The position numbers and the translations under genes are program-made. Under the pieces are notes generated by a model. That model ran no database searches and had not been told where the DNA came from. It saw nothing but the letters and a program-made list of their open reading frames with translations. A stretch of 64,000 bases of DNA from Flavobacteriales bacterium (lineage in GTDB: Bacteria > Bacteroidota > Bacteroidia > CAIKAF01), in contig JAGYKD010000001.1 of NCBI GenBank assembly GCA_018401695.1, positions 474,016-538,015 of the forward strand. The letters run 5' to 3'. Positions 19,875 through 63,196 of this stretch are shown here, piece by piece (position 1 is the stretch's first letter; each line of letters begins with the position of its first letter).

Positions 19875-20050
19875 GCTTTTCGGAGCAAAAAGCGCCCCGG
19901 CGGAGGCCAATTAGCCTGCCGACGTAGGGTGCCCAGCAGCCGCATAGGCAAGAGCGACCACAGGAAGCTCCTTGGCTATGCGTGGCTGCGTAGCAACCCT
20001 TCTAGGCAGCTAATGGCCGGAGACGGAAAAGGCGCCCAAATAAAAAAAAG
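19875..20050 (-). repeat. GC-rich interspersed element (diverged)
   Basis: A GC-rich non-coding stretch ending in AAAAGGCGCCCAAAT which, read on the minus strand, begins like other family members (TTTGGGCGCC). The interior is poorly matched, so membership is tentative. Confidence 0.35.
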
Positions 20051-24154: not shown

Positions 24155-24216
24155 AATTGAGTAATTGTGGAACAAAGGTCGGAAGCTTTCGTGTAAGCTT
24201 TGGTGATAAGGGTCAC

Positions 24217-24376
24217 TTTTGGGCGCCTCATCCTGCCCTCCCTGCTACTCCTCGGTGGCCGGTCACGCCGGGCTAAGGCCTACGGGGGCTTCTTAGGTCG
24301 CCTCCGTGTCCTAAGCCCGGCGGCCCGCCCACCTGTGGGGTATCCGTTCGGTCAGGGGCGCGGGATCCCGGAATTT
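24217..24376 (+). repeat. GC-rich interspersed element
   Basis: Begins TTTTGGGCGCC followed by a CCTGCCCTCCCTGCTACTC-type segment and ends near GGGGTATCCGTTCGGTCAGGG. Related copies are at 26658 (truncated), 33274, 46413, 50347 (inverted) and 63030. The short frame across it has no recognisable protein. The rest of the gap to 24959 holds a degenerate copy of the GCCCACGGTTTAAACC palindrome at 24380-24405 and no gene. Confidence 0.7.
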
Positions 24377-33185: not shown

Positions 33186-33273
33186 AATATTACAAGATAC
33201 GAATTAAAGCAACTTATGCGGCTTTTTTCTCGGATTTTTAATGTGTTCTTTCTTTCCCTAAAGTCAAATGTAT

Positions 33274-33437
33274 TTTTGGGCGGCATTTCCTGCCCTTCCT
33301 ACTACGCTTCGGGCTCCGGGGGTTTAGGGCTAAGCGGTACGGGGTCTCCCGAAGCATCGGGAGGCCTCCGCCCGCCAAGCCCTAAATCCCCGCATCCCTG
33401 CAGGGTAGCCGGTCGGTCAGGGCCGCAGGGTACGCAT
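33274..33437 (+). repeat. GC-rich interspersed element
   Basis: Begins TTTTTGGGCGGC with CCTGCCCTTCCTACTAC-type sequence and ends near GGGTAGCCGGTCGGTCAGGG, like the copy at 24217. It occupies most of the gap between the adhesin and bipA; no gene is in 33186-33596. Confidence 0.65.
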
Positions 33438-33596: not shown

Positions 33597-35411
33597 ATGA
33601 CAGCAATTCGAAACGTTGCCATCATCGCCCACGTCGATCATGGCAAAACCACACTGGTGGACAAAATCATGCACTATTGTGCTCTTTTCAAAGCCCACGA
33701 AACCACAGGAGAACTTATCTTGGACAACAACGACCTGGAGAGGGAGCGTGGCATTACCATTTTGTCCAAAAATGTGTCTGTTCGTTATAAGGATGTAAAA
33801 ATCAACCTAATAGACACTCCAGGCCACGCCGATTTTGGTGGAGAAGTGGAGCGGGTATTGAACATGGCCGACGGTGTATTGTTGTTGGTAGACGCCTTTG
33901 AAGGTCCCATGCCCCAAACCCGATACGTTTTGAGCAAAGCCATTTCCTTGGGCTTAAAACCCATTGTAGTGGTCAATAAGGTAGACAAAGAAAATTGTCG
34001 CCCGGATGAGGTTCAGGAGGCCGTCTTTGACCTAATGTTTAATCTGGACGCTTCCGAAGACCAGCTCGAATTTAGAACCGTTTACGGATCGGCAAAACAA
34101 AACTGGATGGGGCCCGATTGGGTAGAACCCTCCGCAGATATTGGATACTTGCTGGACAGCATTTTAGAAGAGATTCCTGCACCCAATCCCCCTCAGGGTA
34201 ACTTACAGCTCCAAATTACCAGCATTGACTACTCCAATTATATTGGTAGAATAGCAGTAGGCCGTGTGCACAGAGGTTCCATTGCCGTTAATCAACCTGT
34301 TACCCTTATGCACCGCGACGGCGGAAGCACCAAAGCACGTATAAAAGAATTGTATGTGTTCGAAGGCTTAGGTAAAATAAAAACCGAAGAGGTCGTAGCC
34401 GGCGATATTTGTGCCGTAGTTGGCGTAGAAGGCTTTGAAATTGGAGACACCATTGCCGACGGAGAAGCTCCTGAAGCCATGCCTCCCATCAGCATTGACG
34501 AGCCAACCATGAGCATGACATTTACCATCAACAACAGTCCCTTTTATGGTAAAGAAGGTAAGTTTGTGACTTCAAGGCACCTACGCGACCGCCTATTCAA
34601 AGAAACGGAGAAAAACCTAGCACTCAAAGTGGAGGAAACCGGTAGCCAAGATACTTTTATGGTATTTGGTCGGGGCATTCTTCACTTGTCTATTTTGATT
34701 GAAACCATGCGCCGCGAAGGCTATGAATTGCAAGTGGGTCAGCCTAAAGTAATTCTAAAACAAATAGAAGGCAAAGTCTGCGAGCCGGTAGAGTTGTTGA
34801 GCATTGATGTGCCCGAAGCTTATTCCGGAAAGGCTATTGAGCAAGTGACTCAGCGCAAAGGGGAAATGAAAGTAATGAACCCTAAAGGCGATTTGGTGCA
34901 CTTGGAATTTGAAATTCCTTCGCGCTCTCTTTTGGGTTTACGCACGGCTTTATTAAACGTTACGGCAGGAGAAGCCACAGTAACTCATAGGTTCATGGAA
35001 TATATGCCCTTAAAAAGCACCGCACCTTCGCGTGCCCATGGAGCTCTAATTTGCATGGAAACCGGCACTGCCATTGCTTATGCCTTAGATAAGCTCCAAG
35101 ATCGCGGCCGCTTTTTTGTCGCTCCGGGCGAAGAAGTATACATGGGTCAAGTGGTTGGCGAGCATAGCCGCGACAACGACTTGGTCGTAAATTTAACCAA
35201 GAGCAAAAAACTAAGTAACGTAAGAGCATCGGGATCAGACGACAAAGCCTCTTTGGCTCCGCCGATTCGTTTTTCCTTGGAAGAATCCTTAGAGTATATC
35301 CAAGCCGATGAGTACGTAGAGGTTACACCCAAAAGTTTGCGCTTACGTAAAATACATTTGGACGAAAACGACCGGAAGCGAGCTGCCAATACAGCGCAAC
35401 AAGCTTCGTAG
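33597..35411 (+). CDS. typA: Ribosome-associated GTPase BipA/TypA
   Basis: A 604-residue translational GTPase that acts on the ribosome in assembly and stress or low-temperature growth. All G motifs are visible: G1 AHVDHGKTT (about residue 11), the switch I RGITI, G3 [10 protein letters not shown]4 NKVDKE and G5 GSAKQNW. They are followed by domain II ([12 protein letters not shown]) and the BipA-specific C-terminal domain ([37 protein letters not shown]). Full family length. A terminator-like hairpin lies ten bases after the stop. Confidence 0.97.
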
Positions 35412-35420
35412 GGCGCCGGA

Positions 35421-35446
35421 CTGCGGCGGTACCGTGCCGCATTTTT
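35421..35446 (+). terminator. Terminator after typA
   Basis: TGCGGC(GGTACCGT)GCCGCA is followed by five T, ten bases after the typA stop. Confidence 0.75.
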
Positions 35447-35521
35447 CTTTGAGGCAGGCAAGCCTTTGGCGCGGCGGAACCTTTGGTGAGCCCCGCCAAA
35501 GGCTATGCCTGCCCAAAGAAA
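35445..35521. repeat. Long imperfect inverted repeat
   Basis: Two 27-base arms (35445-35471 and 35495-35521) are nearly complementary: TTCTTTG-GGCAGGC-AGCCTTTGGCG against CGCCAAAGGCT-GCCTGCC-CAAAGAA. They are separated by a 23-base GC-rich loop and could form a cruciform or an RNA hairpin. Confidence 0.75.
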
Positions 35522-35584
35522 AAAAGGGACGTAAAGCCAAAGGCCGGAATACGCCCCCAAAAAATTCTCTTTAAATTTAGGGGA

Positions 35585-46412: not shown

Positions 46413-46622
46413 ACTTTTTTGGCGCCTGGTTCCAAAAAAAAACAAGGCCCCTGTCCGCCCTCCCTCCGGTCCACCTTGCCCCCTTTAGGCAGGGCGGTGC
46501 TGCGGGGGCTCTCAAGCCTCCTCGCCCACGCCCTGACCAAAAGGCGGCTTCAGCGGGCCCTCCGTACCGGTCGGGGGCTCCCTGTTCCGCTTCGCTTGCT
46601 CCTTCTTGCCAAAAGAACGCCC
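46413..46622 (+). repeat. GC-rich interspersed element (diverged)
   Basis: Starts TTTTTTGGCGCC and contains a GCCCTCCCTCCGG-like segment and CCGTACCGGTCGGGGGCT, similar to the ends of the family. No gene lies between 46381 and 46653. Confidence 0.5.
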
Positions 46623-49444: not shown

Positions 49445-49609
49445 CATAATAAGCTTCCAAAGGAAGCGACATCCTAATAAGCCTCCAAAGGAGCCGACAC
49501 CCTAATAAGCTTCCAAAGGAAGCGACATCCTAATAAGCCTCCGAAGGAGCCGACACCCTAATAAGCTTCCAAAGGAAGCGACATCCTAATAAGCCTCCGA
49601 AGGAGCCGA
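49445..49609. repeat. Left hairpin array: alternating 28-bp units flanking the RAYT gene
   Basis: Six contiguous 28-base units alternate between type A (AAGCTTCCAAAGGAAGC-GACAT) and type B (AAGCCTCC-RAAGGAGCC-GACAC), joined by CCTAAT. The array runs to within 14 bases of the RAYT start codon, the last unit being degenerate. Confidence 0.92.
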
Positions 49610-49622
49610 AATACCTTTAGTT

Positions 49623-50084
49623 ATGGAAAAGTACTTTTCAACAATCTATGTAGAATTAATTTTTGCCGTTCAATCCAAAGACTGCCTAATTGCAGCCCAC
49701 TGGAAAGATGAACTCTACAAATACATGTGCGGAGTAGTTCGCGCAAAAAATCAAAAAGTCTACGCCATCGGAGGAGCAGCAGACCATGTGCACATGATCG
49801 TAAGTATAAAGCCAAACATAGTTGTAGCAGATCTGGTTAGAGTCATCAAAGCCAACACATCCAAGTGGATTAATGAAGGAAAGTTTACCCATAAAAAATT
49901 CTCCTGGCAAAAAGGCTACCTGGCCTTTTCATCCTGCAAATACAGCATAGATAAGGACATTGCCGCCATTCAGGCTCAAGAAGATTACCACAAAAAATAC
50001 ACCTTTCAACAAGAATATCTTCAAAAGACCCGAAATCTAAACCTAAACCCCTATCAAAAACAAATATTTGATTGGCTCTCCTAG
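49623..50084 (+). CDS. IS200-like/RAYT Y1-transposase family protein, catalytic Tyr replaced
   Basis: A 153-residue protein of the IS200/TnpA/REP-associated family. The HUH metal site is intact as DHVHMIVS (His55, His57). KANTSKWINEGKF and FSWQKGYLAFS are typical. The catalytic helix, usually ...(Y)-I-x-x-Q-x-x-H-H-K-K, reads DIAAIQAQEDYHKK: Ala115 (codon 49965-49967) sits where the nucleophilic Tyr is expected, and Tyr122 replaces the first His of the HHKK pair. It is embedded between two hairpin arrays. Either the enzyme is inactive or it has changed role or uses another Tyr. No transposon ends beyond the arrays are evident. Confidence 0.9.
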   Translation: MEKYFSTIYVELIFAVQSKDCLIAAHWKDELYKYMCGVVRAKNQKVYAIGGAADHVHMIVSIKPNIVVADLVRVIKANTSKWINEGKFTHKKFSWQKGYLAFSSCKYSIDKDIAAIQAQEDYHKKYTFQQEYLQKTRNLNLNPYQKQIFDWLS

Positions 50085-50087
50085 CCA

Positions 50088-50364
50088 CCCATTACGCTTC
50101 CAAAGGAAGCGACACCCTAATAAGCTTCCAAAGAAAGCGACATCCTAATAAGCCTCCAAAGGAGCCGACACCCTAATAAGCTTCCAAAGGAGCCGACATC
50201 CTAATAAGCCTCCGAAGGAGCCGACACCCTAATAAGCTTCCAAAGAAAGCGACATCCTACTAAGCCTCCAAAGGAGCCGACACCCTAATAAGCCTCCGAA
50301 GGAGCCGACACCCTAATAAGCTTCCAAAGGAAGCGACATCCTAATAAGCCTCCGCAGGAGGCGG
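50088..50364. repeat. Right hairpin array: alternating 28-bp units after the RAYT gene
   Basis: About ten 28-base units, mostly alternating types A and B as in the left array, with one place (about 50256-50311) where two B units follow each other. The last unit (CCTCCGCAGGAGG) runs straight into the GC-rich element. Confidence 0.92.
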
Positions 50365-50512
50365 GCCCCGGGGCAAACGGATACCCCACAGGATTCAAGG
50401 CTAGCCGGCCTTAGCAGGCGGAGGCGGCGCGCAGCAAGCCCCCGCACTGCTTAGGCCGGCTTGGCTTGAATCCGAGGAGTAGCAGTGCGCACCGGAAAAG
50501 GCCCCCAAAACC
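50347..50512 (-). repeat. GC-rich interspersed element (inverted copy)
   Basis: Read on the minus strand it starts TTTTGGGGGCC, contains ACTGCTACTCCTCGG and ends CCTGTGGGGTATCCGTT, matching the copy at 24217. It directly abuts the hairpin array. Confidence 0.7.
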
Positions 50513-50575
50513 CTCCTTTCAAAAACAAAAAACAGACATTTCCGCTTAAAAAACCCCTTCGTTAAAAACAGGCAC

Positions 50576-62946: not shown

Positions 62947-63029
62947 TAGATTGGTTTTGAGTGGACTAAGGTACGGAGCATCACTAAAAAAAATTAGGAA
63001 TAGACCCAAAAGGTGATAAAAAGGTAATT

Positions 63030-63196
63030 TGATGTTGGCCGCCGGCCGGGCCCTCCCTGCTGCTCCTCGCTTCGGGGCCAAGGCCCAGGGGCCGCGCAGT
63101 GGTTCCGCAAAGCTCCACCCCGCCCGGCCACCTGGGCCTAAGCCCCGCCGCTGTGGGGCATCCGTGCCGGTCCCTGGCGGAGATCGCGATCCTATA
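63030..63196 (+). repeat. GC-rich interspersed element
   Basis: Starts near TTGGCCGCCGGCC, has GCCCTCCCTGCTGCTCCTCG and ends CTGTGGGGCATCCGTGCCGGTCCCTGG, matching the family. No gene is present in 62947-64000. Confidence 0.7.

Follow-up and report, generated by a model that had tools for sequence, protein, structure and literature searches.

What a Y1 transposase gene that has lost its nucleophilic tyrosine is retained for, and whether the hairpins gathered around it owe their number to its product, are the questions raised by a locus in a 64,000-nucleotide stretch of a Flavobacteriales genome (GCA_018401695.1; the whole stretch is hereafter referred to as the window). A preliminary description of the locus, made from the letters alone, considered a dead element, a domesticated hairpin-binding protein or an enzyme with a relocated tyrosine, and attributed the hairpin arrays either to the enzyme or to slippage after its loss. 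The reading favoured here, at a probability of about 0.6, is that the Tyr-less protein has been kept as a non-catalytic hairpin-binding protein and that the array grew later by duplication at the DNA level. A natural Tyr-to-Ala HUH transposase under selection allows catalysis to be separated from hairpin binding, and makes it testable whether hairpin arrays require their enzyme.

Collection of relatives

Relatives were gathered from the genome to which the window belongs, from its genus and family, and from 395 genomes of the class. Since similarity to the focal protein was the criterion by which the 149 aligned proteins were retrieved, highly diverged Tyr-less forms could have been overlooked. 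Literature searches of partial coverage, including few subscription journals, found neither a Tyr-less TnpA nor these hairpins described.

The protein and its active site

The gene and the two codons of interest are as follows.

49623..50084, + strand: Tyr-less TnpA-Y1 gene (subclass 1.2 descendant), 153 aa, supported by the ORF, a Pfam match, the family alignment and a structure-profile alignment
49965..49967, + strand: codon 115, GCC (Ala), from codon comparison and family alignment; Tyr in 147/149 relatives, GCG in the ortholog of species G003
49986..49988, + strand: codon 122, TAC (Tyr), from codon comparison and family alignment; His in 139/149 relatives

The product matches Pfam Y1_Tnp (E 2.4e-18) and scores 53 bits with NCBIfam NF033573, the model of active IS200/IS605 transposases, just under its cut-off of 55. 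Its HUH motif is H55-V-H57, preceded by D54 so that the DH[IV]H pattern is present, and the family alignment shows H55, H57, K76, W95, Q96 and Q119 to be kept. At residue 115, the two proteins of the 149 that carry Ala are the focal protein and its ortholog in G003 (locus L022), both of which retain the HUH histidines and the metal-ligand Gln (Q119).

A search of the PDB with the focal sequence alone gave no match, whereas a profile of the Tyr-bearing relatives matched ISDra2 TnpA (2xm3, 2xma and the Tyr mutant 2xo6), and in this profile alignment the column of residue 115 falls on ISDra2 Tyr132, the residue replaced by Phe in the mutant chain 2xo6 (Y132F). The predicted structure of the focal protein has a normal Y1 fold (pLDDT 89) and compares with the solved ISDra2 and IS608 TnpA structures at Z scores of 12-13. 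Misplacement of residue 115 in the alignment is ruled out by the agreement between the family and the solved-structure alignments. The preliminary description had allowed that reads might reveal a Tyr codon at 49965; a read error is ruled out by the ortholog of the other species, which encodes Ala with a different third base (GCG against GCC). Its account of the active site, with an intact HUH site, Ala115 at the nucleophile position and Tyr122 in place of a conserved His, thus stands after the family alignment and structural model that it had proposed as checks. The focal gene is confirmed as an IS200-type (Y1) transposase descendant without the nucleophile Tyr.

Age of the tyrosine loss and selection

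The ortholog in G003 is 84% identical to the focal protein and syntenic with it, with a LuxR/TPR-type gene on one side and a secreted-protein gene on the other at both loci. Since Ala115, Tyr122 and further lineage-specific changes are common to the two proteins, the loss of the tyrosine is older than the split of the two species. The genus has four further species, in which the neighbouring gene was not found (E 1e-40), so that the corresponding sites there are unreadable.

In the maximum-likelihood tree the Tyr-less pair is a single clade (support 100/100) nested inside a Tyr-bearing one (100/99); the stem of the pair measures 0.95 changes per column, its tips 0.09-0.10. Altered in this lineage are 16 of the 46 family-conserved columns, and tyrosines were gained at 107 and 126 and lost at 147 on the same fast branch. 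Constraint is evident since then: dS since the species split is about 0.5-0.7, the frame is open in both species, 47 of the 70 differences fall at third codon positions, and dN/dS, estimated for this one species pair, with the Tyr-less form known from two species only, is 0.126 (NG86; bootstrap range 0.066-0.216), 0.196 (YN00) or 0.165 (ML). These values are comparable with those of the Tyr-bearing pair L003/L025 (NG86 bootstrap range 0.073-0.262). The Tyr-less gene has been under purifying selection since the species split, and shows the vertical, single-copy conservation under such selection by which domesticated transposases are recognised; the domestication option of the preliminary description is favoured accordingly by its conservation in two species. 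Rapid change on the stem followed by constraint points to a change of function, since constraint would not return in a gene that was dying, and it fits a protein without catalysis that was kept for binding hairpins. Being shared with the syntenic ortholog, Ala115 is neither a read error nor the mark of a recent gene death.

The hairpin array at the focal locus

The gene lies between two arrays of 28-nt units.

49445..49612, + strand: left array, six hairpin units in the order ABABAB, the last hairpin ending 15 nt before the ATG
50088..50367, + strand: right array, ten hairpin units oriented as on the left, with imperfect alternation and one A/B hybrid
50348..50362, + strand: last unit, GCCTCC-GCA-GGAGGC, with a perfect stem, matching the sole downstream hairpin of the G003 ortholog

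All 16 units (6 upstream, 10 downstream) share one orientation and follow at exact 28-nt steps, the hairpins proper spanning 49453-49607 on the left and 50096-50362 on the right. A units (GCTTCC-AAA-GGAAGC) have a perfect 6-bp stem, with a C.A mismatch in two of them, and most B units (GCCTCC-RAA-GGAGCC) have a C.C mismatch; altogether 10 of the 16 stems are mismatched. By a measure common to all families stem integrity is 5/11, which is at the low end; L174 lies lower and some families are mis-centred, and stem integrity was consequently demoted from a clean sign of decay to a suggestive one.

The near-perfect alternation initially described holds for the left array, where the mean unit distance is 0.171 at lag 1 and 0.036 at lag 2, but is overstated for the right one (0.167 vs 0.138), which contains the hybrid and two pairs of same-type neighbours. 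Over the whole array same-type neighbours number 2/14, a value equally low in 1.4% of shuffles. A 23-nt hairpin pattern, with up to 3 mismatches, does not occur in the genome outside the focal locus, which answers the suggestion that array copies be counted elsewhere.

In G003 a single hairpin flanks the gene on either side, one of the two being degraded, although collapse of an array during assembly of this draft genome is possible. The downstream hairpin there is the counterpart of the perfect unit that ends the focal array, beside the same GC-rich element (see below), and this unit is probably the ancestral copy. Inner units of the same type diverge by 3-4%, far less than the dS of about 0.5-0.7, which together with the two hairpins in G003 indicates that the array was amplified or homogenised after the loss of the tyrosine. 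Relative dating thus supports a recent amplification or homogenisation, at a time when the protein of this genome was already without Tyr115; of the two origins first offered, through the enzyme or following its loss, the near-identical units and the two hairpins in G003 favour the latter. The repeated unit pairs and four-unit blocks would fit tandem duplication.

Adjoining the array is a covarying GC-rich long-hairpin element of about 166 nt, which has further copies in the window.

50354..50519, + strand: element adjoining the focal array
35402-35571 and 19883-20050, + strand: other copies
24208-24370, 33265-33435, 46435-46587 and 63024-63189, - strand: further copies

Among 12 aligned copies, 35 of the 47 pairs changed on both sides, with few G-U pairs, and covariation is 0.592 as against 0.168 after shuffling. 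The focal genome has at least 141 copies, the other genomes of the genus at least 119-148 apiece and G009 at least 150, and the element is sparse or absent in most of the family's remaining genera. Several of the copies in the window directly precede a gene on their own strand. In an Rfam search over the window only a tRNA elsewhere reached the gathering score, the element not being in Rfam; matches of its hairpin to miRNA families were weak and far under threshold. The element adjoins the array both at the focal locus and in G003, and also abuts the paralog locus L002; it is taken here as a neighbour by position and at most a candidate part of the transposase-hairpin system.

Hairpins at paralogous and related loci

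Three Tyr-bearing paralogs, 27-40% identical to the focal protein, are encoded in the focal genome, and two syntenic ones are present in both species that carry the Tyr-less gene. Their hairpins differ in sequence from the focal ones, and every hairpin type tested in the focal genome lies no more than a few kb from the gene to which it belongs. The paralog L003 (G000:C1:583939-584363) adjoins an array of 17 units, alternating over 16 units, in which the two-unit register is clearer than in the focal array (lag 1 0.153, lag 2 0.022); at its syntenic ortholog in G003, L025, the hairpins are fewer and differently arranged. Alternation as the mark of a dead enzyme is ruled out by this more regular array beside a Tyr-bearing gene. 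The window also holds an orphan array near which no Y1 transposase gene was found.

2304-2880: orphan array of 13 head-to-tail hairpin units, broadly similar in type to the focal ones, AGCCCC-ATC-GGGGCGACACC, at 46-nt steps, five with a stem mismatch

An alternating array beside a Tyr-bearing gene and an array beside none imply that neither alternation nor amplification needs a dead enzyme, and apparently neither needs an enzyme in cis.

Across the family, 97 of the 149 loci (L001-L177) have a cognate 15-nt hairpin in three or more copies within 600 bp of the gene. None of the shuffled flanks had two copies, and 141 of the 146 control stretches of the window had two or fewer, the other five lying in or beside the orphan array. 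The common frame is 5'-A, a stem of 5-6 bp, a 3-nt loop (mostly GAA or GTA), the stem and G-3', followed by a tag near ACATTATTATAGAA, whose positions 1, 3, 7, 10 and 11 carry about 1 bit. Upstream hairpins point to the gene and downstream ones are inverted at 24 of the 35 loci where one orientation clearly prevails on either side, whereas the focal downstream array is in direct orientation. A hairpin lies 7-15 nt before the start codon at 23 of 81 family loci.

Proposed function and alternative explanations

The starting point would have been an active Y1 transposase of subclass 1.2 flanked by its cognate hairpins; its nucleophile would have been lost by at least two base changes (Tyr to Ala) in the common ancestor of the two species. 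From the chemistry of the family, the covalent 5'-phosphotyrosine intermediate would then no longer be made. Quick change on the stem branch gave way to purifying selection, and the focal protein has probably turned into a DNA-hairpin-binding protein. Its likeliest retained activity would be non-covalent binding of the hairpins beside its own gene, in the form of single-stranded DNA or of RNA in its leader, with a role as a local repressor or a hairpin-protecting protein, a local regulator being the simplest form. According to its title, 2xo6 is the ISDra2 Y132F mutant crystallised with its recognition and cleavage site, so that the tyrosine is dispensable for binding. The mismatches in 10/16 stems and the few hairpins kept in G003 argue against the hairpins as a still-selected target. 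In one of the species the 28-nt array would subsequently have grown through duplication at the DNA level, in two- and four-unit registers; growth without catalysis by the protein's own Tyr115 is supported by the relative dating.

Amplification in trans by a Tyr-bearing paralog, instead of slippage or unequal exchange, is the least improbable of the alternatives, though still unlikely: there are three such paralogs and the hairpins share the A-stem-xxA-stem-G frame, but the types tested are confined to the vicinity of their own genes, and the orphan array has no transposase gene nearby. The protein might instead restrain the genome's Tyr-bearing paralogs by pairing with them in dead mixed dimers. 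Y1 transposases act as dimers (PMC6006769) and both Tyr-less species have two syntenic paralogs, yet identities of just 27-40% and the differing hairpin sequences render this dominant-negative role slightly more doubtful still. That the gene is on its way to becoming a pseudogene, its conservation only apparent, is improbable: the long stem branch, the altered conserved columns and the decayed stems would suit it, whereas a frame open in both species at such a dS, the excess of third-position differences and an upper bound of 0.22 on dN/dS speak against it.

Least credible is a relocated nucleophile, with Tyr122 (or Tyr126), just past Q119, replacing Tyr115 in a protein that cuts, joins and has built the array. 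Both tyrosines are kept in the two species, an ideal helix would place residue 122 on roughly the same side as 115 relative to Q119, and the array expanded in a species carrying the gene. Set against these, Tyr122 without Tyr115 occurs among the relatives in the focal pair only (L084 has both), the helix is broken at residue 118, between the two positions, in the model as in that of the Tyr-bearing L038, and the same fast branch changed other tyrosines as well. The relocated Tyr of the preliminary description accordingly found no positive support, and its full form, an active HUH enzyme of a new Y1 arrangement with its nucleophile moved seven residues to Tyr122 that built the alternating array itself, is a shade more remote.

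Comparison with known systems

RAYTs carry a Y---NP motif (PMC6006769) and are associated with GTAG-headed, inverted REPs (PMC2817692). The focal gene resembles these class 2 TnpAREP systems (PMC2817692, PMC6006769) as an HUH protein beside short intergenic palindromes that accumulate near the gene. It differs in the absence of Y---NP, of the nucleophile Tyr, and of both GT(A/G)G before the stem and an inverted flanking REP pair as defined in PMC2817692, the two sides having the same orientation; the REP transposase model NCBIfam NF047646 gives 22.6 bits against a cut-off of 80. The initial label of RAYT-like is therefore replaced by descent from subclass 1.2. With the IS200/IS605 TnpA proteins of IS608 and ISDra2 the focal protein shares fold and metal site, but it lacks the nucleophile and is a single, vertically inherited copy with no sign of mobility. 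Many subclass 1.2 hairpins begin with CGTC or similar on the reverse strand, like the CGTC-tagged REPs (PMC3733652); the latter have stems of 8-9 bp, loops of 4-5 nt and no associated transposase, whereas the former have stems of 5-6 bp, 3-nt loops and a Y1 gene.

The closest affinity is with TnpA-Y1 subclass 1.2, described from Bacteroidetes and Cyanobacteria with a Y---Q--HH signature and no REPs reported (Quentin et al. 2018, PMC6006769). In common with it the focal gene has a single domain of about 150 aa, DH[IV]H (D54 H55 V H57), WQ (W95 Q96), low copy number and a place in Bacteroidota, and nests among Tyr-bearing relatives with Y---Q--HH. The signature itself reads A115---Q119--Y122 H123, the Gln and the last His being kept, the nucleophile being Ala and the first His of the pair Tyr. 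By its place in the tree the gene is a descendant of subclass 1.2 rather than an active member. Hairpin arrays set the focal locus apart from the published subclass, for which no REP is listed; as subclass 1.2 genes usually lie amid cognate tagged hairpins, they constitute a new, testable transposase-hairpin pairing in Bacteroidota.
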